Below are positions 7,113-26,546 of a stretch of DNA of 38,333 nt, one piece after another. How positions within the stretch are numbered: the first letter of the stretch is position 1; every line of letters starts with the position of its first letter. The position numbers and the translations under genes are program-made. This stretch comes from Planctomycetia bacterium (lineage in GTDB: Bacteria; Planctomycetota; Phycisphaerae; Phycisphaerales; SM1A02). The notes under the pieces were generated by a model that was given only the letters and a program-made list of their open reading frames with translations, made no database searches and was not told where the DNA came from. The stretch is from NCBI GenBank assembly GCA_005790605.1, contig SXUI01000034.1, positions 1-38,333 of the forward strand, read 5' to 3'.

Positions 7113-8480
7113 TTACGCCCGAACGAGTCTTGCGCCCATTGTCGCTTCGTACTTTCGCATCGCATCACGCGTGTCGATGACAAGCGCCGCATGTTTCGCG
7201 AGAAGCGCGTAGTCGACGGCGGAGTGCGCCGTTGCGATCAACACGCAATCAAAGTTCGCGAGAGACGACGCGTCGAGTGCGACACTCGTCATTTGTAAGT
7301 CATGCCTTCGTCCAGCCCATGTCGCTGGGCAATGCGGGTCGTGATACTCCACATGAGCGCCGCGATGCTGCAGGAGTTCGATGAGTTCAAACGACGGGCT
7401 CTCGCGCACATCATCGATGTCGGCTTTGTATGCCAGTCCGAGGACCAACACGCGACTTCCCTTCACCGACTTTGACTGTTCATTGAGCGCTTCGGCGACG
7501 CGATCAATGACATACGCGGGCATCGCGGTATTGATCTCGCCGGCGAGTTCGATGAATCGCGTGGAATGCCCAGTCTCCTTCGCTTTCCACGTGAGGTAGA
7601 ACGGATCGATTGGAATGCAGTGGCCTCCGAGGCCCGGGCCCGGATAGAACGGCATGAATCCAAAGGGTTTCGTGCTTGCGGCGCGAACCACTTCCCAAAT
7701 GTCGATCCCCATCGCATGGAGCACGACTTTCATTTCATTGACCATCGCGATATTGACAGCGCGAAAGATGTTTTCAAGCAACTTCGCGCTCTCGGCGATC
7801 TCGGCGCTCGCGACCGGAACAACCGTCGTGATTCCCTTCTCATAGACGGCGGTTGCGAGCTTCGTCGAAGCTTCATCGAGCCCACCGACAAGTTTTGGAA
7901 TACTGCTTGTGGTGTGTGATTTCCGGCCCGGATCTTCTCGTTCGGGCGAGAAGGCGAAGAACACATCGCGGCCCGACGCAAGCGTGTGCGCGCGGTCACT
8001 CGCTGCATGCATGACCGCGGGCATCATGTCTTCGCGGGTTGTGCCGGGGTAGGTCGTCGACTCAAGAATGATGAGTTGTCCGCTTCGGAGGGTCTTCCCA
8101 ATCGCAGTGGCGGTTCGCAGGATGTAGGAAATGTCTGGTTCTTGGTGAATCCCGATTGGCGTGGGGACACAGACGATGAGCACATCCGCTTCACCTAGTC
8201 GGTCGAAGTTTGAAGTTGCTTCAAAGCGGGGACTCGCCTGGAGATCTGTGGTGAGCTCAGTGCCAAGATGTTTGAGATAGTTCTCGCCGCGCGCGAGTGC
8301 CTGAATCTTGCCATTATCCACATCGAACCCAAGGACGCGAAGCCCGCCGCGATGCAGTGCGTGTGCGAGTGGCAATCCGACATACCCAAGACCAACCACG
8401 CCGACCCGCGCGTCGTTTGATTGAATGGAGGCGAGTAATCGTTGTGCTGGAGCCGAGAGGCTCGATGGAAAAGTTGTCAT
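7113..8480 (-). CDS. UDP-N-acetyl-D-hexosamine 6-dehydrogenase (WbpA/WecC type)
   Basis: The protein has 455 residues. It opens with the NAD-binding loop VGVVGLGYVGLPLAHALHRG, has FAFSPEREDPG in the middle, and the catalytic cysteine in GPGLGGHCIPIDPFYLTWKA. The C-terminal domain carries VLVLGLAYKADIDDVRESPS. This order is that of UDP-sugar dehydrogenases that oxidise C6 twice to a uronic acid. The extended GGHCIPIDPFYLTWKAKE form is closest to UDP-N-acetylglucosamine 6-dehydrogenases of the WbpA type, as I remember them, rather than UDP-glucose dehydrogenases. It is the first gene of the minus-strand polysaccharide run and so supplies an N-acetyl-hexosaminuronic acid donor. The exact substrate is not certain. 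Confidence 0.93.
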   Translation of the reverse strand: MTTFPSSLSAPAQRLLASIQSNDARVGVVGLGYVGLPLAHALHRGGLRVLGFDVDNGKIQALARGENYLKHLGTELTTDLQASPRFEATSNFDRLGEADVLIVCVPTPIGIHQEPDISYILRTATAIGKTLRSGQLIILESTTYPGTTREDMMPAVMHAASDRAHTLASGRDVFFAFSPEREDPGRKSHTTSSIPKLVGGLDEASTKLATAVYEKGITTVVPVASAEIAESAKLLENIFRAVNIAMVNEMKVVLHAMGIDIWEVVRAASTKPFGFMPFYPGPGLGGHCIPIDPFYLTWKAKETGHSTRFIELAGEINTAMPAYVIDRVAEALNEQSKSVKGSRVLVLGLAYKADIDDVRESPSFELIELLQHRGAHVEYHDPHCPATWAGRRHDLQMTSVALDASSLANFDCVLIATAHSAVDYALLAKHAALVIDTRDAMRKYEATMGARLVRA

Positions 8481-8538
8481 AGGAAGCTCGGTTCCTGCCC
8501 AATGCGAGTGGGGAGATTATCCGAACCTCAGACGATGA

Positions 8539-9021
8539 TTAGACCTGCACAGAGAGTCTGGGCCGTGTGGGTTGGGCGCCAGTCGTCGCAGCAACCGGAG
8601 CCGCGGGCGGCATCTCGGTCACACCGCTCGCAGCATGATTCTCGCGAGCGAGTTCGTCCATGCAGAGCACCCAAGTCTCTCGTTCGAAGCGGAGGAGCTT
8701 GAGCACTTCGTCAACGATTGTCTCACTCTTTTCGATACTCGCCTCAAGGAGCCGTTGATACATGAAGGTGTAAAGCGCAGTCATTCGCTCGCAGAGCTCT
8801 GGGCTTCGCTCGGGTCGCAGTGAGTTCACGAGTTCGAGCAAGATTGCCTGTGCTCGGGTCGTGCCTTCAAAGGAGGCCTCGAAGTCACGACTCGCATATC
8901 CCGCCTTGGCATTTTCGCTAAAGCGAATCGCTCCATCGATGAGCATCAAGCGAAGCTCTGCCGGCGAAGCCGTGAGGACTTTCGTGCGCAAGTAAACTTG
9001 TGATCCGGCGGCTGCTTTCAT
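8539..9021 (-). CDS. fliS: Flagellar export chaperone FliS
   Basis: FliS binds the C-terminus of flagellin in the cytoplasm and keeps it from polymerising before export. The 160-residue protein begins QVYLRTKVLTASPAELRLML, matching the Y-x(n)-V-x-T-A-S-P-x-E-L-x-x-M/L-L-Y/I-D signature of FliS, followed by four amphipathic helices. The last 30 residues (from about 130) are a loose tail rich in Ala, Pro and Thr, longer than in the usual ~125-135-residue protein. It starts 44 bp downstream of the fliD stop on the same strand, the classic fliD-fliS order. No flagellin gene is in the window. Confidence 0.92.
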   Translation of the reverse strand: MKAAAGSQVYLRTKVLTASPAELRLMLIDGAIRFSENAKAGYASRDFEASFEGTTRAQAILLELVNSLRPERSPELCERMTALYTFMYQRLLEASIEKSETIVDEVLKLLRFERETWVLCMDELARENHAASGVTEMPPAAPVAATTGAQPTRPRLSVQV

Positions 9022-9065
9022 GGCTCATTATCTCATCGGCGATGCGGACGCTGAACTTTCGCCCG

Positions 9066-12000
9066 TCAACCTCCGCCGAAGCCCATGAGCATGCTCGTCA
9101 TCGAAGACTGTTGCGCCTGCAGCTTTGCGAGGGTTGACTCCATCGTCGCGAATTGTGTCTGCAAGCGCAGCCTGCGCGCGTCGATGCGGGAATCGAAAAG
9201 TGTGATTCGACCATTCAACCCCTTGAGCTGGTCGTCGAGGCTCTTGTCGGCGATCTTGAACACGCCATCGATCGGATCCACAAGTTTGTTCAGCGTTGTC
9301 GCGATGAGATCCGAGAAGCCGAGACTTGTGTAGGTTGTCGAGTCGTTCGCGACGGTGATGCCAGGGCTGACCGTTTGTGATGTCGAAGACTGCGCTTGGT
9401 AGGCGGTGAAGAGGTCCTCCACTGCTTGCGCGTCTGTGTCGTATGCGGCGCGGAACTTCTCCTCATCGAACACGATTTGCCCGTCTTTTCCAAAGCGAAT
9501 GCCGACCTGTGTGAGGTACTGATATCGACCTTCTACATTCTTGGCTTTGCTTTGCACCAGGCCGACGATCTGCTGTTTCGCTCGCGCGACAGTGGGATCT
9601 CCCAACAATGGGCCCTTCGTCTTTGCCTCATCGTCGTACTTGTCGTAGGTATTGATTCGGCCAAGCGCGTCATTGAGTGCCGTGACGATGCTCTTCACGC
9701 TTGTGAGAATGCCATCAAAGTCACGGCTCACCGTCGCGGTGGTCTCCCCGACTTTCTTGGCAGTCACATTCATGCCAGAAACAACATCTCTGAATTCGTT
9801 GGTCGCGCTCGTGAAGACGAAGGAAGTTTCAGAACCACTCTCGCCGAGCACGAGCACCGCGTCGCGCGCCTCGGTCATCGTTGACAGACCAAAGTCCACG
9901 AGCCCCGAATCGGCCATCAAGCGGCCGTTTCGCCCGGTGACACTTGAAGTGATGGCCAGGCGGTAGGGCTGCGCGCCACTCCCTGCGTTCACGATCGTGG
10001 CAGAGACTGGGAGTTTCGCTTCCGTGATCTTTCGCACGATGTCTGCGAGCGTGTCAGATGTTTCGAGATCGACACTTCGCTGATAGGAGCCATCGATGTC
10101 ATCCCCCGCTGCTGTCGCAGACTTCGAGATGCCAAGCGCAGTCGCCACGCCACCCGAAGAGTCTTCGACCTTCATCGCGCGAGTCGCGACTCCCGTGTTC
10201 GTATCGACGAGCAGAAGTCCGTCACCGTTGGCGTTGATGCGCGCTTCGATAAAGAGACCACGCGAGTTGATCTCGCTCATCACATCGTAGAGCGTGACTG
10301 CATCGCTATCGATATCCACGTTCGCCGTGGCACCTGTACTGTCGGTCAACTTCATGCGACCCGTGCCGACACCGCGACCGTAGTTGAGCGTTGTGAGCAG
10401 TGATCCCTCACTCACATACTGTGATTGAAGATCGGTACCACGCAGGCTGTCAGCGGAGCCGCTTCGCGCGATTCCCAAAGCAGTCGCCATCGTGCCCGAG
10501 AGCGAGAGCGCACCAGAGCCACCTGAAGTGTCGTTGGCAATAAGTGACTTTCCGCTGTCGCTTATCGCGAGCGCGACATCGACGCCACTCAACGCAGCTT
10601 GCGCGTTGACGGCGCCAATGATCTCGCTCAGTGTGCCGTACGCGGCGAGTCCGGTCATCGAGAACGATGCACCGGAGCGATCTTGAATCGTGATGGCATC
10701 CGCGCTACTCAGCCCGCTTCCACCGTTCATCGTCGCGGCGCGAACTGTCTGAACCCCGCTCGCGATGCGCGAGCCCGTCACGCTTCCCGTGCCGGTGAGA
10801 CCATGAATTCCAAGATTGCGAGCGGTGCGTTCTGAAATCGCTGCGCCCTGGCTTGAGCCGTCGACGGTGCCAGCGAGCACGGTGATCGTGTTCGCGCCAG
10901 CACTGAGTTGCAGTCCTGTTCCCGCACCGTTGATGGTCGCAGTGACGGCGCCGCTTGTTTGAGCGCTAATGCGATCAATCAAGTCACCAATCGTTGTCGC
11001 GCGAGGTACCGCAACTTTGTTTCGCACAACGCTGCCATTGATGACGGCTGCGCCGCTCGTGCTGACTCCCGTAAAGATGCCGAGGTCTTGCGCCGTCGCG
11101 TCCGCATGTGGTCCCGCACCTCGAACTTGCAGTGTGCCACTTCCCGCCATGGTGTCAGTGACGACGAATCCCTTGCCATCCGCGCGAAGGCTCATGACGA
11201 CCTTGCCGGCACCGAGCGTCTCCTCAAGTTCGCCGTTCACGCGCGCCAGAAGCTCCCCCACTGTCTTGACTTTCGCGTCAGTGACTTCACCATCGACGAG
11301 CACATCACCGAGGTTGACTCCGACACTCACGCCAGTTGAAGTGATGACGGTGAAGTCGTCCGCATCGGTTGTGTTGATCCGAATGCCGGCGCCATCGCGA
11401 AGATCTGAGAGGAGAGTTGACGAGGTGATCGGCGCGTCCTCGCGCCCAAGTGAGATGCTGTAGACAGTGCCTGCGACATCGAGCCGAAAATCTGCGACGC
11501 CATCGCGTGTCAATACTCCGGCGCCGTCATTGAGACTCGCGAGTGAAGAGTTGCGACCGAGCCCGTTCAATTGGGAACTCGTCACCGTATTCGCGTAGAT
11601 GTTTGCTTCGATGCCAAGGTCTTGCGCGAGTGTCCCCGTCACATCATCGACGATGAACGAAGCACCACCGCCAGAAACGTCACGCAGAACGAGGCGTTCG
11701 TTCTCAATCGCGGCAGTGACATTCACCGTTTCGTCAGCGTTGATCGCTTCAACAACTTCTTGCAGGCTCGTTGCCGCACTGAGGTCGATCAAGCTTGTCT
11801 TGAAGAGGCGATCCGTAATGCGAACCTTGCCTCCATGCACACCGTCGCCGCCATTGAGCGTCGTGAGCGCAGTGTCATTTTGCACGCCGCCGTGTCCGAG
11901 TTCGAAGGAGATTCCATCGAGGCCAGCCGGAACGGTGTTCGTGCCCGCGAATCCGCGCGACAACAACTGGCTGTTGGTGACCATGCGTGCGATGCGCATT

Positions 12001-14176: not shown

Positions 14177-16330
14177 GTGGAACACCTTCCCTCCATCAAA
14201 TCCGATGTGCTCAGAGCGCTCTGGCGCGAACGGAGATTCGTGACATGGATCGCGCTCCTCGCGTTCGCTGCGTTTCTGCCGAGCGTTTGGATGTGCGGCT
14301 GGATTTGGGATGACGATTCGTATGTCACGCTCAATCGTGTCGTGCAGAGTTCAGACGGCCTCTGGCGTGCGTGGATACCAGGAGAGACGCCGCAGTACTA
14401 CCCATTGGTGTTCGTGAGTTTTTGGATTGAGCACGCGATCGTTGGCCTGCACCCCGCGCTCTTTCACTTTGACAATGTTTGTTTGCACGCGGCGGCGTGT
14501 GTGTGTTTCTACTTCGCGTTGATTCGTCTTCGCGTGCCCCACGCATTTTGGATTGCAGCGATTGTTGCTGTGCATCCCATGCAAGCTGAGAGTGTCGTCT
14601 GGGTGACGGAGCGAAAAAATGTGCTCTCGTTTCTATTCGCGATGGCGAGCGTGCTTGCTTGGTTGCGCGCGGAAGACACAACCTCGCGTCAGCAGGTTGC
14701 GCGATGGAGCGCGATCGCGCTGCTCTGTTTTGTTTGCGCGATGTTGTCGAAGACGACGGCGGTGTTCATTCCGCCCGTGTTGATTCTCATTCGGTTGTGG
14801 GAGCGCCGAGCGATCAACTTCATGCTCTGCGTGCGCGTCGCACCTTTCTTTGTCCTCGGCCTCATCGGTGGCTTACACACGGCGTACCTCGAGAAGACGC
14901 ATGTCGGCGCAGTGGGGGACGAGTTCTCGTTGACGATCTTGCAGCGCGTGAGTCTTGTCGCGCAGAATTTTTTCTTCTATCCATTGCACGCGCTCATGCC
15001 ATTTGAACAGGTGTTCATCATGCGGCGTTGGCAACTTGGGCAGTGGGTGTTCGGCGTGGATGAACCTGGCGCAGCAGCACTCGTCGCGTCGATCGTCGTT
15101 GTGTGTATCGCCGCGCTCCGGTGGCGGCGGAATCGCGCGACCCTGTTGATCTTGCTCTGGTACTCCGCCGCGATTTTCCCCGCGCTTGGATTCTTTGACA
15201 TTTATCCGTTTCGATACTCCTTCGTTGCGGATCACTTTGCATACGCCGCGCTTCCCGCGATTTCGTGCGCGGTGGTCGTGTTTTTCGGAAGGGAGATCAC
15301 GAATGTGCGTGTTCGCACTGTTGTTGGCGTCGTCTCAATCGTTGCGCTGCTGACGCTGTCATGGCGAACACTTCCGCGCTTCGAAGATGAGAAGACGCTG
15401 TGGACCACGACTCGGGCGCAGAATCGAGGTGCATGGATCGCTGGGGATAATCTCTCAGCGATCGCATTGAGAGAAGCTGAGGCCGTACTGCAACTTCCGC
15501 CCGCGAACTCGGTGTCCGAACAGCAGCGGCGTGATGACTTCGTTCGTGCGCGTGCTGATGACGCATACATCCTCGCGTCTCATGATTCTTGGTTGGACTT
15601 TGACCCCGTAGTCTCCTACACAAATCGATCGGAGGCGGCTCGTCTTCGCGGCGATTACGCTCAGGCACTAGGGGACTTGGACCTGTCCGTCTATCGGGGA
15701 GTCGACGCTCACGGAAGTTTCGTGGCAAGCGGCGAGATGAGCGCGGAAGGCCATTGGATGCGTGGTCGACTTCTCGAACTACTCGCGCGCGACGCGGAGG
15801 CCGCGAGCGAGTATCGCATTGCGTCTCACGACGCGGATGTGCGCATTCGTGAGCGGGCGCTTCGAAGCCTTCTTGCATTGACGGTGCGCACCGAGCGAAC
15901 ACTCGATGCGGCTCGCGTCGCGCGCGAACTCGTCGAAGTCGCGCCAAACGACAGGGGCGCTTGGCTCAATCTTGGTGCTTCACTGATCGCCAACGGAGAA
16001 CACAGAGAGGGTCGTCGCGTACTCCTTGTGCAGCTCTTGAGCCGTGAGTTGTCCGAACAGTTGTGGGTTTCAGCTGCGGTGAGATATGTACGAAGCGTGG
16101 CCGATGATGATGCATCGGATGCTGATGAGATTGCTGCGGCGCATCGCTTCGCGGACACCATGGTGGAGCGCAGTGGCGGGAGCGAGATTGCGAAACTACT
16201 GCTCGCGCGTATGCGACTTCGAGCGGGAGATCGGGATGGTGCCCGGGCGCTCGCGATGGAAGTTGAGCAGAAGGCCGGGTCAGATGTCGTGCGCAATGAA
16301 GCGGCAGCGATTCGCGCGCTCACGGATTGA
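14177..16330 (+). CDS. TMTC-like membrane protein (GT-C type) with TPR-like C-terminal half
   Basis: The protein has about 717 residues from a GTG start; the start is uncertain because no good ribosome site is seen. The first 400 residues have around ten membrane segments and the landmarks of the DUF1736/TMTC group: WIWDDDSYVTLNRVV in the first periplasmic loop with its acidic residues, TPQYYPLVFVSFWIEHAIVG, and HPMQAESVVWVTERKNVLSF. The rest is soluble, helical and repeat-like (REGRRVLLVQLLSRELSEQL), consistent with TPRs. Eukaryotic TMTCs are O-mannosyltransferases; the role of the bacterial relatives is not settled, though protein or lipid glycosylation at the membrane is likely. It stands alone between parB and the riboswitch. 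Confidence 0.82.
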   Translation: MEHLPSIKSDVLRALWRERRFVTWIALLAFAAFLPSVWMCGWIWDDDSYVTLNRVVQSSDGLWRAWIPGETPQYYPLVFVSFWIEHAIVGLHPALFHFDNVCLHAAACVCFYFALIRLRVPHAFWIAAIVAVHPMQAESVVWVTERKNVLSFLFAMASVLAWLRAEDTTSRQQVARWSAIALLCFVCAMLSKTTAVFIPPVLILIRLWERRAINFMLCVRVAPFFVLGLIGGLHTAYLEKTHVGAVGDEFSLTILQRVSLVAQNFFFYPLHALMPFEQVFIMRRWQLGQWVFGVDEPGAAALVASIVVVCIAALRWRRNRATLLILLWYSAAIFPALGFFDIYPFRYSFVADHFAYAALPAISCAVVVFFGREITNVRVRTVVGVVSIVALLTLSWRTLPRFEDEKTLWTTTRAQNRGAWIAGDNLSAIALREAEAVLQLPPANSVSEQQRRDDFVRARADDAYILASHDSWLDFDPVVSYTNRSEAARLRGDYAQALGDLDLSVYRGVDAHGSFVASGEMSAEGHWMRGRLLELLARDAEAASEYRIASHDADVRIRERALRSLLALTVRTERTLDAARVARELVEVAPNDRGAWLNLGASLIANGEHREGRRVLLVQLLSRELSEQLWVSAAVRYVRSVADDDASDADEIAAAHRFADTMVERSGGSEIAKLLLARMRLRAGDRDGARALAMEVEQKAGSDVVRNEAAAIRALTD

Positions 16331-16337
16331 CGCTATG

Positions 16338-16547
16338 CTTGCAGCGTCCCGTGTGTTGCGGGACATTTGACGCGTCAGGCGAAAGCGGTGTGAATCCGCT
16401 ACGAAGGCGTCACCGTGAACTGTGTGAGCGACGAGCTCCTGCAGAAGTCGGGTCGACCTGGCGCATCAATCTGTCCGACCCCTCCGCTCATGAGGTGCGC
16501 CGGCTTCTGCAGACCTGCCCGCTTGCGTGTTTCGCAAGCAATGCAAG
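16338..16547 (+). promoter_or_regulatory. Cobalamin (B12) riboswitch aptamer
   Basis: The leader contains the marks of a cobalamin aptamer in the right order. P1 can form between CTTGCA at 16338-16343 and TGCAAG at 16542-16547. A GTCCCG...CGGGAC hairpin (16346-16364) follows. Then comes AAAGCGGTGTGAATCCGC, the conserved GGTGnnAAtCC element (about 16382-16399), then CACCGTGAACTGTG, resembling the CCACTGT element. The B12 box is CTGCAGACCTGCC (about 16507-16519), matching CAGGAGACCTGCC at 11 of 13 positions. The length of about 210 nt is normal. It lies directly upstream of the small exported-protein gene. Boundaries are approximate because the fold was done by eye. Confidence 0.85.
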
Positions 16548-16601
16548 GCTCGCAGCGCCTCGACTTCATGGAAGTGCCGCACGGAGGGGAAGTGTTCGCT
16601 T

Positions 16602-16636: not shown

Positions 16637-17212
16637 ATGCAGTTCATGAGTGTTGGTTCGATCGGTTTCGCAATCGCAAGTGCATTGACAATCACTGTCA
16701 GTGCGAACGCGGCGATTGTCGGAAGTTACGCAGTCGGTAGTGGCTCACAAGTTTCAACGGTGCAGTTTGACTTCGTCACACTTGGAACGAACGAGACGAA
16801 TACGTATCTCTACGAAGTCGCGCACGATGCGGGGCTCTTTGGCGATGATTTGTTTGCGATCATCGCTGCTGCACAGCCTGGTTACTTTTCGCATGAGGTC
16901 ATCACTTTTTCCTTTGGCGACGCGCTCTACAGCGTGGGGATTGGCTCAGACTTCGCCGCTGGGTTCGGCACCGCGCCGGACTATCTTGACTACTGGCACT
17001 ACTGGACGCGGGACAACGCCGCGCAGGCATGGAGTGAGTCGTGGATCGGATTTGGTGATCGCGCGGTGACCGATGGCAGTTGGGATGGGTGGGTCTTCAA
17101 TCTATGGGGCGCGCCTGCTGCAGTGCCAGCGCCCGCGGTGCTCTCACTCTTCGCGATGCTCGGCATGCGCCAATCACGCCGCCGATCGGTTACTTGCTCG
17201 TCGGCGTCTTGA
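16637..17212 (+). CDS. Small exported protein with PEP-CTERM-like tail, under B12 riboswitch control
   Basis: The frame is open from 16415, but bases before 16637 belong to the riboswitch; the ATG at 16637 follows AGAAGGG and begins a signal peptide (MQFMSVGSIGFAIASALTIT, cleavage near SANA). The product has 191 residues. Its C-terminal third has an aromatic motif, DYWHYWTRDNAAQAW...FGDRAVTDGSWDGWVF. It ends with VPAPAVLSLFAMLGM followed by RQSRRR, a short, degenerate PEP-CTERM-like sorting signal. I do not know the family. The aromatic motif resembles the YW-x-Y...V-x-DGD-x-x-W-x-Y pattern of DUF4430, the fold of the C-terminal domain of intrinsic factor/transcobalamin; this is a resemblance by eye only. 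With the riboswitch, a role in B12 capture at the cell surface is a reasonable inference. The last 23 bases overlap the convergent gene. Confidence 0.8.
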   Translation: MQFMSVGSIGFAIASALTITVSANAAIVGSYAVGSGSQVSTVQFDFVTLGTNETNTYLYEVAHDAGLFGDDLFAIIAAAQPGYFSHEVITFSFGDALYSVGIGSDFAAGFGTAPDYLDYWHYWTRDNAAQAWSESWIGFGDRAVTDGSWDGWVFNLWGAPAAVPAPAVLSLFAMLGMRQSRRRSVTCSSAS

Positions 17213-20200
17213 GTGTCGAAAGGTATGCCACAACATCGCGCAACTCACTCTTCGTAAGCACGCTTCCCATCTTCGGCATTGCCGACACTGGCCCGAATCC
17301 GTCCACGACAACCGCTTGCGGCACAAGAAGTGATTGCAGGAGCGACCGCTTGTCTGCGTGAAGCGCAACGCCATCAAGGGCTGGTGCGGCATTGCCGCCC
17401 GTGCCTTCAACGGTGTGACACTTCACGCAGACGGCGGATTGGTGATACAGCACGATTTGCCGTCCACGATCTGCATCGCCGCCCTCGACGCAGAGCAGTT
17501 CGAATCGACCGAGTTCATCAGTCGCTCGTGCGTTGAAGCGCGCGAGCGCGTTCTGCATCGCAGCATCTTGCGTTGCTCTTGCAAACTCCTCAATCTCGAG
17601 TGCAAGCGCTGGCGCAATCGTTCCCTCAGCAAGATTGTTTGCGAGCGGCGCGACGATCTCCGTCGCGAGCTCCGGATGCCTTGAGAGATCGCGAAGTGCA
17701 AGTTGTTGTTCAAGCAAACTCCCCGACTCCACTGCTTGGCGGAGTTGCGGTACGGCAGACGGGAAGTCCACGACTGCGAGAATGGACCGTGCTTGTGCAC
17801 GCAAGCTTGCGCTGTCTGACGCGAGAGCGGCTTCCACCGCGGCAGGTCGACGTGTCGCATCTCCCGCGAGAGAACGGAGACTTGCGACGCGCTCTCGCTC
17901 GGGAACTGCTGTTTCGCGAATCGCACGCAACGCGGCATCGGGATCGAGCGAGACACCATGCTTCGAGGTCATCTCAAGTGTCGCCGCCCGAATCGCGGCC
18001 GAGCGATCCTCAGCGAGTGGAGCAAGTCGTCTTGCAAGCACGGCCTTGAAGGCCTCGGCATCGCGCCTAGATGCATCGATAGGTCGATACGCGCCGTTGA
18101 CGCGATCTCGCACACCTGGCGAGAGCCACTCTCCGAGTGTTGCGATCGCTTCGAGCCGCATGGGTTCTGGGTTACTCGTCGCGAGCGCATAGGTACAGAC
18201 TTCGGAGGCGAGGCTGTCGCTGCCCATGCGCAAGGCGGCATAGAGCGCACGACGCGTGAACGGGAAGTCACTCGTATCTATAGGTGTCGCGCCAATAGGG
18301 CTCTCCATCGCCCCACTAGGGAGTTGCCAGCGAACGGTGAGGTGATCGCCGCCGCCGCCTTCCGCGTGACGCGCTTCGAATGCATAGCGCTTTCCTGCTT
18401 CAAGTTGAATCGACGCACTCTGCTGACCTGGCGCCGAGGTGAAGTCGTTCACATTCGAGTAGCCCTCAACACGCGCAACTTCTCGCAGCGTTGATGGATC
18501 TTCATCCGTACCTATGAGGAGGACGGAATCGTCATCACTCGCGATCCCGAAGATGTACTGGCCTGTTTCAGGGGCAACCACAGAACCTCGAATGCGCGCG
18601 ATGTACTTGTCGCCTGCGTTGCGCGGCGCATCAGGGGTCGAGAGTTGCGCGCTATTCGATGGAGCGGACGCAAATCGCGCGGCATCGATGAGATCGTTTG
18701 CGGTGGCGGCTCGATCGAGCTGCCAGACCTCGCGGGTGAAGACATGCTTCGGCGCTGACTGCGGTGCAGAAGTCGCTGGTGCGCCAGATTGAGAGTTGGC
18801 GCGAATCAGCGACTCAGCGAGCTTCAGAGTGAGGGCGTCGAGTTCGAGATCATTGATCGCTCGCGCGGCTTCATGGCGCAGGAGTCGCTCTGGGTCTTCA
18901 AGAAACTGTGCGATACGCGTGTCGCGTGACTTTCGCATGGCCAAGAGCGCGGCGAGCCGAACGCATGCGCGTGGGTCAGCTGCGAACTCGCCGAGCTTGA
19001 CGGGATCTTGCATCCAGTGCAGCGCCATCACACCCGCGTGGCGAAGGAACACATCTTGATCGTTGTTCTCTGCGAGCATGGAGAGGATGGATGGCGCTTC
19101 TTCAATCGCACGCATGCGGCCAAGCGCCATACTTGCGAAGTAGCGGACGCGGAGCGAAGGGTCAGCGCAGAGTTCGGCAAGTTTCGGAGCGGCGCTTCGA
19201 GTTCGTGCTTCGCCAAGCACCTTCGATGCTTGCGCACGAATCTCCGCGTCTCTGTCATCGAGCAACCCCATGACGAGGCGCATCGGATCGAACGGATCTC
19301 GCGCGCTCGGATTCGAAGCAAGGCGCGCCTGCGCTTGTTGACCGAGTGCCCAGATCGCGTGCACGCGAGCGAGTTGGTTGGGTGCGCTGATTGCAGCGTC
19401 GCCGAGAAGGTCCGTCGTCTGTTGGCCTCGCGATGCGAGTTCCCATTGTGCACGAGAGCGAACTCGGCGATCGGCGTGTGAGAGCAACTCGCGAAGTTCA
19501 TCGCTATCGCGTTGCGAAAATCCTTCGCGCAAGAGTTGAGCCGTTGAGAGCACCGCGTTGTCTTGCGCGTGCTTGGGATCCCAAACAGAGTAAAGCTCGC
19601 CCTTCTTCGCGGAGTACCAACCATCGCCCCAATCACTCACGATGATGCGACCGTCGGGCGCGAAGTCGATATCCGTCGCGAGCACATTTTCAATGAACGG
19701 CGTGACGCTCGTGACTTGAAAACCAGCGCCAAATGGCTGCACACGAACATCGAGGACCTGGCTGTAGGACGCACCGCCAAGGAAGTCGCAGAGAAAGAAC
19801 GCGCCTCGGTAGGACGCATCAAGACCAGTACCCGGATAGCAGACAAGGCCACTCGGTCCACTGCTCACATGATCAAGCGGAGGAATCGTCCACGCTGGCT
19901 GCGATGGATTGCTCTCGCGAACTTTCATTGGAGCGAGATCTGCGCGGAGATGCCAGATGCCCTCTTGATTCCACGGACCACGCTGGTTCACGCCATCAAG
20001 CGTTTGGTACTCCATGCGCCAACCTGTCTCTCCGCCCTCAACGCAGTAGACGAATCGCGCTTGGTCTCCGCCGTCCGAGTTGTTGTCGCCTGTGAAGAGA
20101 TTTCCGAAGTCGTCGAACGCGAGTTCCTGCGGATTGCGAAGTCCGGTGCAATAGAGCTCGATCGCGCTGCCATCCGGATTACAGCGGAACACTGCACCCG

Positions 20201-20975
20201 CGCGCGGATCTTTGAGGATCTCTCCCTCGGGCGTGCGAATGTTGTATCCACGATCACCGATGGACCAATAGAGCTTGCCATCGGGACCCCAAACGAGTCC
20301 GTGCATGTCATGGCCACGAAGCGCAACGCGCACACCAAATCCGTCGTAGACCGAGGTGCGGTCCTCCGCAACCCGATCGTTGTCGTGATCTCGCAATCTC
20401 CAGAGCGAAGGGATGTTCGTGTACCAAACATCGCCATCGCGGGTGATGAGTCCAGCACCAGTTCCATCAAGCGGATCATGAAACGGTCCCGCGAAGAGGC
20501 TACGGCGATCGAGTCGCGCATCGCCATCTGTGTCCTCAAGCATGATGACGCGGTCTTCGTACTTGCTGTAGTACGCCATGCCGCCTTCGCGCTTCTCTGC
20601 CCACTTCTCATACATCTTGAGTCGATCAGCCGTAGATTGCGCTTGCAAATCATCGAGCAGCCACCAGCGACTCGAGCGATTGTCCTCAACCCCTAACTCC
20701 TGCCGGTCACTCTCCGCGACGAAGATGCGTCCAAGTTCATCGATGGCGATCGCGACTGGATCATCCACTGTGGGGTAGACCGCAATCAATCGGCACGACA
20801 AGCCTGCGACGGGGCGGAGTTTGCAAGGATCCGTGAGTTTGGGATTCGCGTCCGCAAGCGCCGCGCTCTCGGCTTCGGTTGGGGGAACGCAACTGAGAGT
20901 CGTCGGGACAGGCAAAATCGTCGTCGCTGCACCGGCTGCGACCGCGAAGAATCGAGTGGAACCAAGAAAGCGCAT
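17190..20975 (-). CDS. PVC-type CxxCH heme protein with beta-propeller, HEAT repeats, PA14 and cytochrome c domain
   Basis: The ATG at 20975 is preferred over 21026 because it starts a signal peptide (MRFLGSTRFFAVAAGAATTI). The protein has 1261 residues. The first ~430 form a sorbosone-dehydrogenase-like propeller (DPVAIAIDELGRIFVAESDR, GLRNPQELAFDDFGNLFTGD). HEAT-like helices follow (RVHAIWALGQQ, VRYFASMALGRMRAIEEAPS). A PA14-like beta domain then has ARIRGSVVAPETGQYIFGIA and SIQLEAGKRYAFEARHAEGG. More helical repeats precede a C-terminal cytochrome c with CVKCHTVEGTGGNAAPALDG and a possible Met ligand in SAMPKMG. This architecture is typical of Planctomycetes. Such proteins are thought to be periplasmic or surface redox enzymes acting on sugars; substrates are unknown. 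PA14 suggests carbohydrate binding. It is divergent from the Tat-exported isomerase-like gene. Confidence 0.9.
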   Translation of the reverse strand: MRFLGSTRFFAVAAGAATTILPVPTTLSCVPPTEAESAALADANPKLTDPCKLRPVAGLSCRLIAVYPTVDDPVAIAIDELGRIFVAESDRQELGVEDNRSSRWWLLDDLQAQSTADRLKMYEKWAEKREGGMAYYSKYEDRVIMLEDTDGDARLDRRSLFAGPFHDPLDGTGAGLITRDGDVWYTNIPSLWRLRDHDNDRVAEDRTSVYDGFGVRVALRGHDMHGLVWGPDGKLYWSIGDRGYNIRTPEGEILKDPRAGAVFRCNPDGSAIELYCTGLRNPQELAFDDFGNLFTGDNNSDGGDQARFVYCVEGGETGWRMEYQTLDGVNQRGPWNQEGIWHLRADLAPMKVRESNPSQPAWTIPPLDHVSSGPSGLVCYPGTGLDASYRGAFFLCDFLGGASYSQVLDVRVQPFGAGFQVTSVTPFIENVLATDIDFAPDGRIIVSDWGDGWYSAKKGELYSVWDPKHAQDNAVLSTAQLLREGFSQRDSDELRELLSHADRRVRSRAQWELASRGQQTTDLLGDAAISAPNQLARVHAIWALGQQAQARLASNPSARDPFDPMRLVMGLLDDRDAEIRAQASKVLGEARTRSAAPKLAELCADPSLRVRYFASMALGRMRAIEEAPSILSMLAENNDQDVFLRHAGVMALHWMQDPVKLGEFAADPRACVRLAALLAMRKSRDTRIAQFLEDPERLLRHEAARAINDLELDALTLKLAESLIRANSQSGAPATSAPQSAPKHVFTREVWQLDRAATANDLIDAARFASAPSNSAQLSTPDAPRNAGDKYIARIRGSVVAPETGQYIFGIASDDDSVLLIGTDEDPSTLREVARVEGYSNVNDFTSAPGQQSASIQLEAGKRYAFEARHAEGGGGDHLTVRWQLPSGAMESPIGATPIDTSDFPFTRRALYAALRMGSDSLASEVCTYALATSNPEPMRLEAIATLGEWLSPGVRDRVNGAYRPIDASRRDAEAFKAVLARRLAPLAEDRSAAIRAATLEMTSKHGVSLDPDAALRAIRETAVPERERVASLRSLAGDATRRPAAVEAALASDSASLRAQARSILAVVDFPSAVPQLRQAVESGSLLEQQLALRDLSRHPELATEIVAPLANNLAEGTIAPALALEIEEFARATQDAAMQNALARFNARATDELGRFELLCVEGGDADRGRQIVLYHQSAVCVKCHTVEGTGGNAAPALDGVALHADKRSLLQSLLVPQAVVVDGFGPVSAMPKMGSVLTKSELRDVVAYLSTLKTPTSK

Positions 20976-21012
20976 GAGAGTGTGGAATGCTATCGGCGAT
21001 AGCATCACCCGC

Positions 21013-21945
21013 ATGTCGCAACCCATCGATCAACTCGCTGCTCGTCGGACTTTCTTGGGTGCGGTCGGAGCCGCATCACTGACTTCTGTCGCGTCTGCGA
21101 ATCTGCTTGCGCGCGCGCAGACCCAAACCACGCCGAGCCAAGTAACAGCACTCGATCCCAACAAGCCAGGACGCACTCCGAACATGAAGTTCGCGATCAA
21201 CCTTGAGATGTGGTTCGGAAACTTGCCGTTTGCAGATCGCATTCGCGCAACCGCGGATCTCGGTTTTGAGTTCGTTGAGTTCTGGCCTTGGCGCAACAAA
21301 GACGCGGTCGCGGTGAAGGCGGCGCTCGCACAAACAGGCGTCAAGGTTACGCAGTTCACTGCGTGGGGTTTCGTACCTGGCATGAATGATCCGAAGAATG
21401 AAGAGGCCTGCATCGCTGAGGTGGAAGCATCGTGCCTCTTTGCGAAGGAGATTGGGGCGCCAATGATGACCGTCGTTGCAGGCAACGACATTGCCGGCGT
21501 TTCGAAGCAAGACATGCACGCGCAGGTGATCAAGGTCCTCAAGCGCCTCGCGCCAATCGCGGAGAAGCATCAGGTCATGCTCATTCTGGAACCGATGAAC
21601 ATTCGAAATGACCACAAGGGGCATTGCCTGTGGGGCAGCCCAGATCCAGTGCGCATATGTCGCGAAGTCGCTTCACCATGGGTGAAGATCAACTGGGATC
21701 TGTATCACATGCAGATCAGCGAAGGCGATCTTTGCCGACGATTGCGCGAGGGTTTTGACCAAGTGGGATACATCCAAGTCGCAGATAATCCTGGCCGCAT
21801 GGAACCCGGTACAGGCGAGATTGCGTACGCACGCGTGTATAAGGAGCTTCGTGATCTCGGATACACGAAACCGATCGGCGTGGAATGCAATCCGAGTTGC
21901 GATCCTAAAGAGGCGGCGTTTCGCCTCGCACAGTCGGATGTTTGA
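21013..21945 (+). CDS. Tat-exported hydroxypyruvate isomerase-like TIM-barrel protein
   Basis: The ATG at 21013 gives 310 residues and places a twin-arginine signal at the N-terminus (QLAARRTFLGAVGAASLTSV); an ATG at 20974 in frame is an alternative. The mature part is a sugar-phosphate isomerase/epimerase-type barrel of the hydroxypyruvate isomerase group: MKFAINLEMWFGNLPFADRI, then MLILEPMNIRNDHKGHCLWG, INWDLYHMQISEGDL, IQVADNPGRMEPGTGEIAY, and IGVECNPS. The Glu, Asp, His and Glu in these strand ends match the metal-binding and catalytic set of the fold. Hydroxypyruvate isomerase is cytoplasmic in E. coli, so a Tat signal implies a folded, metal-loaded periplasmic enzyme, perhaps acting on 3-keto sugars. 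The true substrate is unknown. Confidence 0.87.
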   Translation: MSQPIDQLAARRTFLGAVGAASLTSVASANLLARAQTQTTPSQVTALDPNKPGRTPNMKFAINLEMWFGNLPFADRIRATADLGFEFVEFWPWRNKDAVAVKAALAQTGVKVTQFTAWGFVPGMNDPKNEEACIAEVEASCLFAKEIGAPMMTVVAGNDIAGVSKQDMHAQVIKVLKRLAPIAEKHQVMLILEPMNIRNDHKGHCLWGSPDPVRICREVASPWVKINWDLYHMQISEGDLCRRLREGFDQVGYIQVADNPGRMEPGTGEIAYARVYKELRDLGYTKPIGVECNPSCDPKEAAFRLAQSDV

Positions 21946-25742: not shown

Positions 25743-26435
25743 TCAGGCCGCTGCGCGGACGCGGAGCTTCTTCGCCCAGCGTTCGTTGCGGACAGTCTGG
25801 AGCTGCACGAGTCGCTGAAGGAGATCCGCAGGACCCTTCGCGCTGATGTCAGCGCCGATTTCCTCGGCCAAGCCTGGTGCGCGATTGAAGATGCCGCCGC
25901 CGACTGCGATTTGCATCGATGGGTGTGCGTTCTTCTCGCGGATTGAATCGATGAGTTCACGGATCATCGGCGCGTCCTTGGCGCTTGAAGCGAAGAGCAG
26001 GAGCACATCAGGTTGTCTGTTTGCAAGCTCCTCGGAAATGTCGTCGTTGGCAACGCCGCCGCCAGCAAAGGTGACTTCATATCCATCCGCCTCAAGCAGG
26101 TCAGCCACCATCTGTCCTGCGAGTTCTTCGGTCTCGTTTGGACCACAGAAGATGCAGATCGATCGGCCGCGGAGTTCCTTCTCCTCGTATCGCGCTTGTG
26201 CTTGATCGACGAGCATGCGCAGCATTCGCGTCGAGTAGTGGTGCGCGAGCGTCGTCATCTGATCCTTGCGGAACAGCGTGCTCGTGAGCTCAAGGAGTGG
26301 CCAGAACAGGTCCTTTGCGAGAGTCTCTGCACTTTCGCCTGCTGCGTAGAGGGAGTTGACGAACTTTCGTGCGCTACGGCGCTCGCCCGAGACGAGGTGC
26401 GAGTGAAGTTGCTCGATGCTGCGTTCAATGTTCAT
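25743..26435 (-). CDS. B12-binding-fold protein lacking the DxHxxG motif (possible sensor)
   Basis: The ATG at 26435 is preferred over 26537 because residues before it are low-quality sequence. The 230-residue protein has two parts. Residues 1-85 form a helical cap domain of the B12-binding type. Residues 90-215 form the Rossmann-like B12 fold: SICIFCGPNETEELAGQMVA, ADGYEVTFAGGGVANDDISE, DVLLLFASSAKDAP and IAVGGGIFNRAP. The lower-axial motif DxHxxG is replaced by NETEEL, so the cobalt-binding His is absent. The cap has F55-x9-H65-H66, aligning by eye with the W-x9-E-H motif of CarH photoreceptors. No DNA-binding domain is attached. It may bind cobalamin base-on, bind another ligand, or act as a B12-independent sensor. 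It is convergent with xylA. Confidence 0.82.
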   Translation of the reverse strand: MNIERSIEQLHSHLVSGERRSARKFVNSLYAAGESAETLAKDLFWPLLELTSTLFRKDQMTTLAHHYSTRMLRMLVDQAQARYEEKELRGRSICIFCGPNETEELAGQMVADLLEADGYEVTFAGGGVANDDISEELANRQPDVLLLFASSAKDAPMIRELIDSIREKNAHPSMQIAVGGGIFNRAPGLAEEIGADISAKGPADLLQRLVQLQTVRNERWAKKLRVRAAA

Positions 26436-26503
26436 GGGAAGTAGGGGGCTTAGAGCTGTTTGCCTTGCGCACCATCCACAGTGCGCTTCGGCTTCTTGCG
26501 AGT

Positions 26504-26520
26504 TCCGGATGCACTCCGGA
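26504..26520. promoter_or_regulatory. TCCGGA direct/inverted repeat
   Basis: TCCGGA occurs twice, spaced by TGCAC; as TCCGGA is self-complementary the pair is both a direct and an inverted repeat. It lies in the ~210-bp divergent region between the B12-fold gene and the DUF4097-like gene and could be an operator or a weak hairpin. Confidence 0.25.
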
Positions 26521-26528
26521 GGTTGCCT

Positions 26529-26546
26529 GCGTGACACGCATCACGC
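26529..26546. promoter_or_regulatory. CRP/FNR-like operator candidate
   Basis: GCGTGA-cacgca-TCACGC is a perfect 6-6-6 inverted repeat whose core GTGA-N6-TCAC equals the half-site layout of CRP-family sites. It lies about 95 bp upstream of the B12-fold ATG and 100 bp upstream of the DUF4097-like gene, in their shared divergent region. The regulator is inferred from the motif only. Confidence 0.4.

Follow-up and report, generated by a model that had tools for sequence, protein, structure and literature searches.

In the animal carriers of vitamin B12 (transcobalamin, intrinsic factor and haptocorrin), an N-terminal alpha domain closes over the vitamin. To our knowledge, links between these carriers and any bacterial protein with an established role in B12 are not commonly drawn, and the open-licence literature yielded no paper on a bacterial transcobalamin-like, riboswitch-linked protein of the kind described below. 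A bacterial family that we presume to come from actinobacterial cobalt/B12 loci is SCO2322 (NCBIfam NF040672), for which a search of the same literature likewise returned no paper. The isolated beta domain of transcobalamin has been crystallised with cyanocobalamin and cobinamide (PMC5599065), and strands beta3' to beta7' of rat transcobalamin, together with the beta7'-beta8' loop, are said to be anchored by the ligand (PMC11107200). In Bacteroides, BtuG, BtuH and BtuJ (DUF4465) are reported to be B12-binding surface lipoproteins from cobamide uptake loci (PMC12751083, PMC8941943).

We analysed a 38,333-nucleotide stretch of DNA from a Planctomycetia bacterium of the order Phycisphaerales (contig SXUI01000034.1, assembly GCA_005790605.1, positions 1 to 38,333), hereafter called the window. 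One of its genes likely encodes an exported, probably exosortase-anchored corrinoid-capture protein with a transcobalamin-beta-like domain, which would catch B12 outside the cell. The gene and its leader comprise the following features.

16347-16467, forward strand: divergent cobalamin riboswitch aptamer with the core GGTGTGAATCC...CGTCACCGTGA...AGTCGGGTC; covariance model R1, 73.3 bits (the same element as L001:1211-1331)
16479-16495, forward strand: short leader hairpin CCUC-CGCUCAU-GAGG (16481-16495), a possible expression platform
16637-17212, forward strand: gene for the predicted transcobalamin-beta-like protein, 191 amino acids, stop codon (17210-17212) within the range
16637-16711, forward strand: putative signal peptide, residues 1-25, MQFMSVGSIGFAIASALTITVSANA, read by eye; model helix 7-21
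16742-17107, forward strand: predicted transcobalamin-beta/DUF4430-like beta-grasp domain, residues 36-157, the model range aligned to transcobalamin 310-409
16991-17014, forward strand: motif 1, YWHYWTRD, residues 119-126, with strand 120-125; from conservation and model
17060-17098, forward strand: motif 2, RAVTDGSWDGWVF, residues 142-154, including strand 149-154; from conservation and model
17123-17185, forward strand: degenerate PEP-CTERM-like tail VPAPAVLSLFAMLGMRQSRRR, residues 163-183; model helix 166-184

The coding frame (16637-17209) gives 191 residues, and its ATG is kept in all four same-genus leaders compared. We also weighed the in-frame GTG at 16592, which follows GGAGGGG, as an alternative start and ruled it out, since its frame contains a stop in L003 and the GTG itself is missing from L004. 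A large convergent gene on the reverse strand (17190-21026), with DUF7133, HEAT repeats, PA14 and cytochrome c domains, overlaps the 3' end of the gene by 23 bases. At its C-terminus the protein carries VPAPAVLSLFAMLGMRQSRRR and then a short extension. Scans with the Pfam and NCBIfam profiles gave no PEP-CTERM match to the window protein; TIGR02595 matched 4 of 30 aligned family members at E <= 1, and its cut-off (16 bits) was passed by L079, L092, L108 and L144, all of them distant relatives. An exosortase gene (PF09721) is present in the window's genome. The signal peptide and the tail together suggest that the protein is exported and sorted to the surface or the matrix.

Relatives were sought in 101 genomes, namely the window's own and 100 related ones. 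The window protein matched in 37 of them at E <= 0.01, and 35 of these matches were taken as real; G011 (E 0.005) and G081 (E 0.006) were dropped, as were four secondary matches in G001, G028 and G041 (E 7.9e-5 to 0.009), which covered the C-terminal part only. Five real carriers (G018, G032, G033, G068 and G096) have no locus in the aligned set, and their genes were read later. The alignment comprises the window protein and one relative from each of 29 other genomes, with 30-75% identity to the window protein. Among the motif residues of these 30 members W120, Y122, W123, D150, W152 and F154 are invariant, and Y119, H121, R142, G147 and V153 are conserved in at least 90% of them, so that 11 of the 21 motif residues are invariant or at least 90% conserved and the other ten vary more. 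Of the residues that separate the motifs, G138 is invariant and W132 reaches at least 90% conservation. Both aromatic motifs sit where the initial annotation had placed them; their order was also as it had described, and the spacing it gave, about 20 residues, is corrected here to 15.

A wider scan used two short peptide patterns derived from the alignment, applied to one genome per species (84,980 species), and such patterns would miss more distant relatives. It returned 81 relatives at 79 distinct loci. The record titles name planctomycetes for 65 of the 79 loci and only 'uncultured bacterium' for six; the rest name other groups or none. These others include L079 (titled Deltaproteobacteria), L092 (Myxococcota) and L108 ('bacterium'), whose proteins are among the most divergent; titles of environmental assemblies may err. 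Removal of duplicates by the C-terminal 105 residues left 82 distinct proteins over both sets, and a loose pattern for the motif pair, written after the alignment had been seen, matches 81 of them. In plasmid records no match to the window protein or to the L108 protein was found. Two strongly divergent transcobalamin-like proteins, encoded at L167:5018-6009 and at L165 (in G033; the same gene as L141), have cobalamin riboswitches of their own and, as judged by eye, retain FW-x-x-[YW] and later G-x-W-x-G-[WF].

The fold was predicted with AlphaFold2 from the 30-sequence alignment. The model has a mean pLDDT of 83.3, with means for ten-residue blocks of 87-98 over residues 31-110, 61 over 111-120 and 90-95 over 121-160; the low confidence thus falls just ahead of motif 1. 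When the model was compared with the PDB by Foldseek, the first 19 rows were all transcobalamin, intrinsic factor, haptocorrin or the DUF4430 protein 3u7z. The scores were modest (best E 2.5e-4, with six rows reaching 0.001 or lower), and the TM-scores by query were 0.34-0.44 because the tails are unmatched. Re-alignment gave Z 13.1 over 110 residues at 2.8 A for intrinsic factor 2pmv and Z 11.2-12.3 over 100-101 residues at 2.2-2.7 A for the transcobalamin entries, among which 2bb6, 2bb5, 5np4 and 5no0 reached Z 11.8-12.3 over 100 residues at 2.3-2.4 A. Haptocorrin 4kki scored Z 12.2 and 3u7z Z 10.4, whereas the best fold outside this group, a molybdopterin-synthase subunit, scored only Z 6.5. 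A second model, in which the distant L108 protein leads 15 others (13 of the 16 rows being common to the first alignment), had a pLDDT of 81.8 and gave the same ranking, with Z 11.6-12.8 against 6.6 for the next fold. We therefore predict from these models that the window protein has the beta-domain fold of transcobalamin, intrinsic factor and haptocorrin.

The resemblance to DUF4430 and intrinsic factor that had been seen by eye is thus borne out at the level of the model: the proteins it named are the nearest structures (Z 10.4-13.1 against 6.5), and they fill the first rows of the proposed Foldseek comparison. The refuting outcome set beforehand, a model without kinship to the DUF4430 fold, did not occur. 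In the strict Pfam sense the DUF4430 assignment does not hold, since the PF14478 profile (cut-off 23.8 bits) gave no match to the window protein at E <= 10, to the 30 aligned members at E <= 1, or in the window's genome. Pfam as a whole returned nothing for the window protein and scattered weak matches among the 30 members. Searches of the PDB with the family by phmmer and by profile gave unrelated low matches only, and PDB sequence searches with planctomycete DUF4430 proteins gave nothing. Since these sequence-only routes are weak, the identification rests on the predicted fold together with the riboswitch.

The register between the window protein and the animal carriers was deduced from the ends of the aligned ranges, because the aligner gives no residue pairs. 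The last position of the structural alignment sets model residue 157 against transcobalamin residue 409. With the count taken back from there without gaps along the human transcobalamin C-terminus (376-409, FWQLLRDPNTPLLQGIADYRPKDGETIELRLVSW), D398-G399 falls on D146-G147, G390 on G138 and D393 on D141. FW 376-377 of transcobalamin then corresponds to YW 119-120, with about five extra residues between the motifs of the window protein. The C-termini of haptocorrin (TYWELLSGGEPLSQGAGSYVVRNGENLEVRWSKY) and intrinsic factor fit the same register. The counterparts of motif 1 would then be FWQLL in transcobalamin and YWQFL in intrinsic factor, the human letters being taken from the PDB chains, and that of motif 2 would be YRPKDGETIELRL in transcobalamin. 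On this register the conserved motifs lie on the last strands and on the loop that presumably match the ligand-anchoring region of rat transcobalamin.

The fold comparison also bears on what the protein would do with a corrinoid. In the manner of haptocorrin, it could scavenge or buffer corrinoids that are incomplete (cobinamide, other cobamides), or B12 in the shared matrix, without feeding the cell's own uptake. Haptocorrin is among the equal-best folds (Z 12.2), the isolated transcobalamin beta domain is reported to bind cobinamide (PMC5599065), and surface anchoring would suit the role of a sponge. We nevertheless regard this as improbable, as control by a riboswitch implies a benefit for the B12-starved cell.

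As to the riboswitch itself, Rfam at its gathering score reports no cobalamin riboswitch in the window. When RF00174 was run on the 601 bases around the leader, it matched 16325-16457 with 18.9 bits (E 0.013), below the cut-off of 31.5. The riboswitch that had been assumed in front of the gene consequently falls short of the Rfam cut-off in the window, and it is through the relatives that it becomes solid. With Rfam alone (E <= 0.05), a riboswitch of the cobalamin clan lies directly upstream, on the gene's strand, in 21 of the 30 loci (14 of 20 plus 7 of 10), and the cut-off of RF00174 or RF01482 is passed in five of the 30 loci L001-L030 (L013, L018, L022, L026 and L027). The core pattern occurs within 600 bases upstream in 20 of the 30 and 42 of the 79 loci; the 1.2 Mb searched contain no further copy on either strand. 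The covariance model R1, built from 38 sequences including the window copy, detects an upstream element in 29 of the 30 and 74 of the 79 loci, ending 40-248 bases before the assigned start codon, and finds no other match above 17.4 bits in 1.1 Mb.

Counted by protein, R1 is positive for 76 of the 82 distinct proteins; 38 of these are represented in the training set, so that their match follows from the way the model was built, and 38 are not. Three more (L026, L079 and L108) are supported by RF00174 above its cut-off, which brings the model-supported number to 79 of 82. L106 and L107 begin 18 and 2 bases after the contig end. For L092 no covariance model reported a riboswitch, and its leader, GGGAAGTGTGGTG ... 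GCGCCGCCGTGATGG ... AGCCGGAAGACCTGCC, resembles by eye a core and B12 box that an insertion has separated. The aptamer helices covary: 90.9% of the cells are paired, as against 73.6% in shuffled and 29-46% in slid alignments, and 125 cells are changed on both sides as against 42, the structure counted having come from the same alignment. Two of the five measures are less clear, namely the pairs changed on both sides (reached by 67 of 500 shuffles) and the pair types (31 of 500). The element thus has a conserved core and a B12 box with covarying helices, and the gene behind it is presumably related to B12.

Between the aptamer and the start codon, CCCCUCCG (16479-16486) is complementary to CGGAGGGG (16582-16589). 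CCTCCGCTCATGAGG and CGGAGGGG are identical in all four same-genus leaders and CCCCUCCG in three of the four. The leader folds no better than its shuffles (z -0.75) and its best structure lacks the long pairing of CCCCUCCG with CGGAGGGG; on account of this z-score we claim no on/off mechanism.

The empty Rfam gathering search of the window and the empty Pfam scan of the protein might be read as a sign of chance, that is, of an aromatic motif picked out by eye in an unrelated exported protein near an unrelated riboswitch-like stretch. The conservation of the motifs, the predicted fold and the riboswitch association each oppose this, and we take such a coincidence, which would be extremely improbable, as refuted.

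The gene content of the window's genome (3.03 Mb, 99% complete) is consistent with a cell that uses B12 and takes it up. PF02310 occurs at four places; by reading of the open reading frames, one belongs to a MetH-like protein and one to a mutase B12 domain joined with a GTPase of the MeaB type. The third place lies within the window (25827-26147), where a stand-alone protein on the reverse strand (25743-26537) has both B12-binding domains, PF02607 and PF02310; by eye it lacks the DxHxxG cobalt-binding motif, and it is possibly a former CarH-type regulator. A trio of PF01497, PF01032 and an ABC ATPase on contig 52 has a BtuFCD-like order, and its role as BtuFCD is putative. PF02570 (CbiC) was found in none of the 101 genomes and in 7 of 14 control genomes, which makes corrin-ring synthesis unlikely in the group, as judged from this single biosynthesis family. 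The TonB-dependent receptor family PF00593 was not found in the window's genome. The idea that the gene and TonB receptors are complementary was ruled out, PF00593 being present in 10 of 33 carriers and 10 of 28 non-carriers among the same-family genomes, where carriers are those with E < 1e-5 and G011 (E 0.005) counts as a non-carrier.

The searches of the window's genome turned up two cobalamin riboswitches in all, the one described above and a second; R1 detects both, and RF00174 also detects the second. The second belongs to the following unit.

Contig 52 of the window's genome (G000:C52, locus L140), 8087-8334: cobalamin riboswitch
Same locus, 8425-9357: gene for an apparently exported protein with a weak dockerin-type tail
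Same locus, 9351-10160: gene for a prepilin/DUF1559 protein

Three other genomes have homologues of all three genes, the transcobalamin-like one included, behind one riboswitch. The unit reads transcobalamin-like, prepilin, surface protein in L108; transcobalamin-like, surface, prepilin in L170, which belongs to the same family as the window's genome; and surface, transcobalamin-like, prepilin in L164, which shares its taxonomic order. In L163 the transcobalamin-like and prepilin genes occur together. The surface protein of L108 shares 32% identity with that of the window's genome (E 9e-31). A riboswitch precedes the pair of surface and prepilin genes in seven more loci (L146-L150, L166 and L167), a divergent transcobalamin-like gene in L165 and in the second unit of L167, and other surface-type genes with a prepilin-type gene in L168 and L169; as these loci were chosen by riboswitch or protein matches, they illustrate the arrangement and do not amount to a survey. 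Of the 79 family loci, 8 (L033, L051, L065, L073, L082, L087, L108 and L109) are matched by the surface protein of the window's genome; for those other than L108 the dockerin tail alone might account for the match. At L169:1958-5306 a cobalamin riboswitch is followed by genes for a repeat-rich PEP-CTERM-like protein, a second PEP-CTERM-like protein and a prepilin-type protein. The suggestion that the repeat-rich gene is a BtuG, perhaps a beta-propeller, was not established (PQQ_2 at E 0.0016, below its cut-off; no support from a PDB search).

The transcobalamin-beta fold might serve a ligand other than B12 (cobalt or some other metal, a carbohydrate or a partner protein) within a B12-regulated surface programme, for example as a matrix or adhesion protein that is produced under B12 shortage and has no contact with the vitamin. 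In four genomes the gene stands in an operon-like run with a prepilin/DUF1559 gene and not with a transporter, three of the four runs also including a second surface-type protein; moreover, 3u7z, a DUF4430 structure, carries only the title 'putative metal binding protein', and a shared fold does not show a shared ligand. What makes this reading unlikely is that the nearest folds are those of B12 carriers and not of general beta-grasp proteins, and that the link to the cobalamin riboswitch is nearly universal. Capture of a corrinoid remains our preferred reading. A broader proposal, which we put forward tentatively and would not yet favour, is that Phycisphaerae planctomycetes have a riboswitch-controlled B12 set of their own, in which transcobalamin-type capture proteins, surface proteins with dockerin or PEP-CTERM tails and prepilin/DUF1559 proteins jointly gather extracellular B12 and pass it to BtuFCD without a TonB-dependent receptor. 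On that proposal the domain with which the animal carriers grip B12 would have a bacterial counterpart with the same job.

For the window protein itself, the following sequence of events may be envisaged. Judging from its class, the divergent riboswitch would permit expression when intracellular cobalamin is low. The signal peptide would export the protein, and the C-terminal tail would have it sorted to the cell surface or the matrix. There the single beta-grasp domain would bind B12, gripping the corrinoid with the YWHYW strand and with the loop and strand G...DR...DGSWDGWVF. The cell, probably lacking corrin-ring synthesis, would import B12 via the BtuFCD-like inner-membrane transporter and use it for MetH and a methylmalonyl-CoA-mutase-type enzyme, as its gene content suggests.

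Several bacterial families invite comparison. The Bacteroides binders differ from the window protein in fold, BtuJ having an augmented jelly roll and the BtuH domain being reported without known structural homologues; they have lipoprotein anchors in place of a sorting-type tail, and BtuG partners the outer-membrane transporter BtuB (PMC12751083, PMC8941943), whose receptor family is not found in the window's genome. NF040672 aligns its positions 7-60 of 144 with window residues 118-173, the motif stretch, and matches 28 of the 30 aligned members at E <= 1 (best E 8.4e-5); the window protein scores 17.3 bits against a membership cut-off of 85. The DUF4430 structure 3u7z has the same predicted fold (Z 10.4), and of the planctomycete DUF4430 proteins L112-L123 several consist, like the window protein, of one domain that follows an apparent signal peptide, and present their elements in the same order: a V-x-[VI]-[DN] strand, a WYY strand and GD-x-x-x-W-x-[YF]. 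In a single comparison by hhalign, the family and nine planctomycete DUF4430 proteins gave a probability of 41 and E 2.8e-4, which is only suggestive of kinship between the profiles. DUF4430 was found in 18 of 294 Planctomycetota, all 18 in the category 'same phylum' and none in the window's order or class. Since DUF4430 gives no sequence match, the window protein represents a new family in the transcobalamin-beta fold group.

The nearest folds are those of the animal carriers. The beta domains of transcobalamin (5np4, 5no0, 2bb5, 2bb6, 8ixt), intrinsic factor (2pmv, 3kq4) and haptocorrin (4kki) share the predicted fold over window-protein residues 33/36-157 (Z 11.2-13.1, 100-110 residues, 2.2-3.0 A), with 13-19% identity over the aligned part. 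The aromatic-Trp strand reads [FY]WQ[FL]L or YWELL in the carriers and YWHYW in the window protein, and the loop G-x-x-[DS]-[YR]...[DN]G is common to both, intrinsic factor having NH in place of DG. Unlike the carriers, the window protein is bacterial, lies behind a riboswitch, has a sorting-type tail and has about five more residues between its motifs. It also lacks their N-terminal alpha domain, only the apparent signal peptide preceding the beta-type domain; a single-domain corrinoid binder is plausible, and its affinity without the alpha domain may be lower than in the animal carriers. The family offers a concrete, testable prokaryotic relative or analogue of these carriers and points to a possible B12 route in B12-dependent planctomycetes in which no TonB-dependent receptor is detected.
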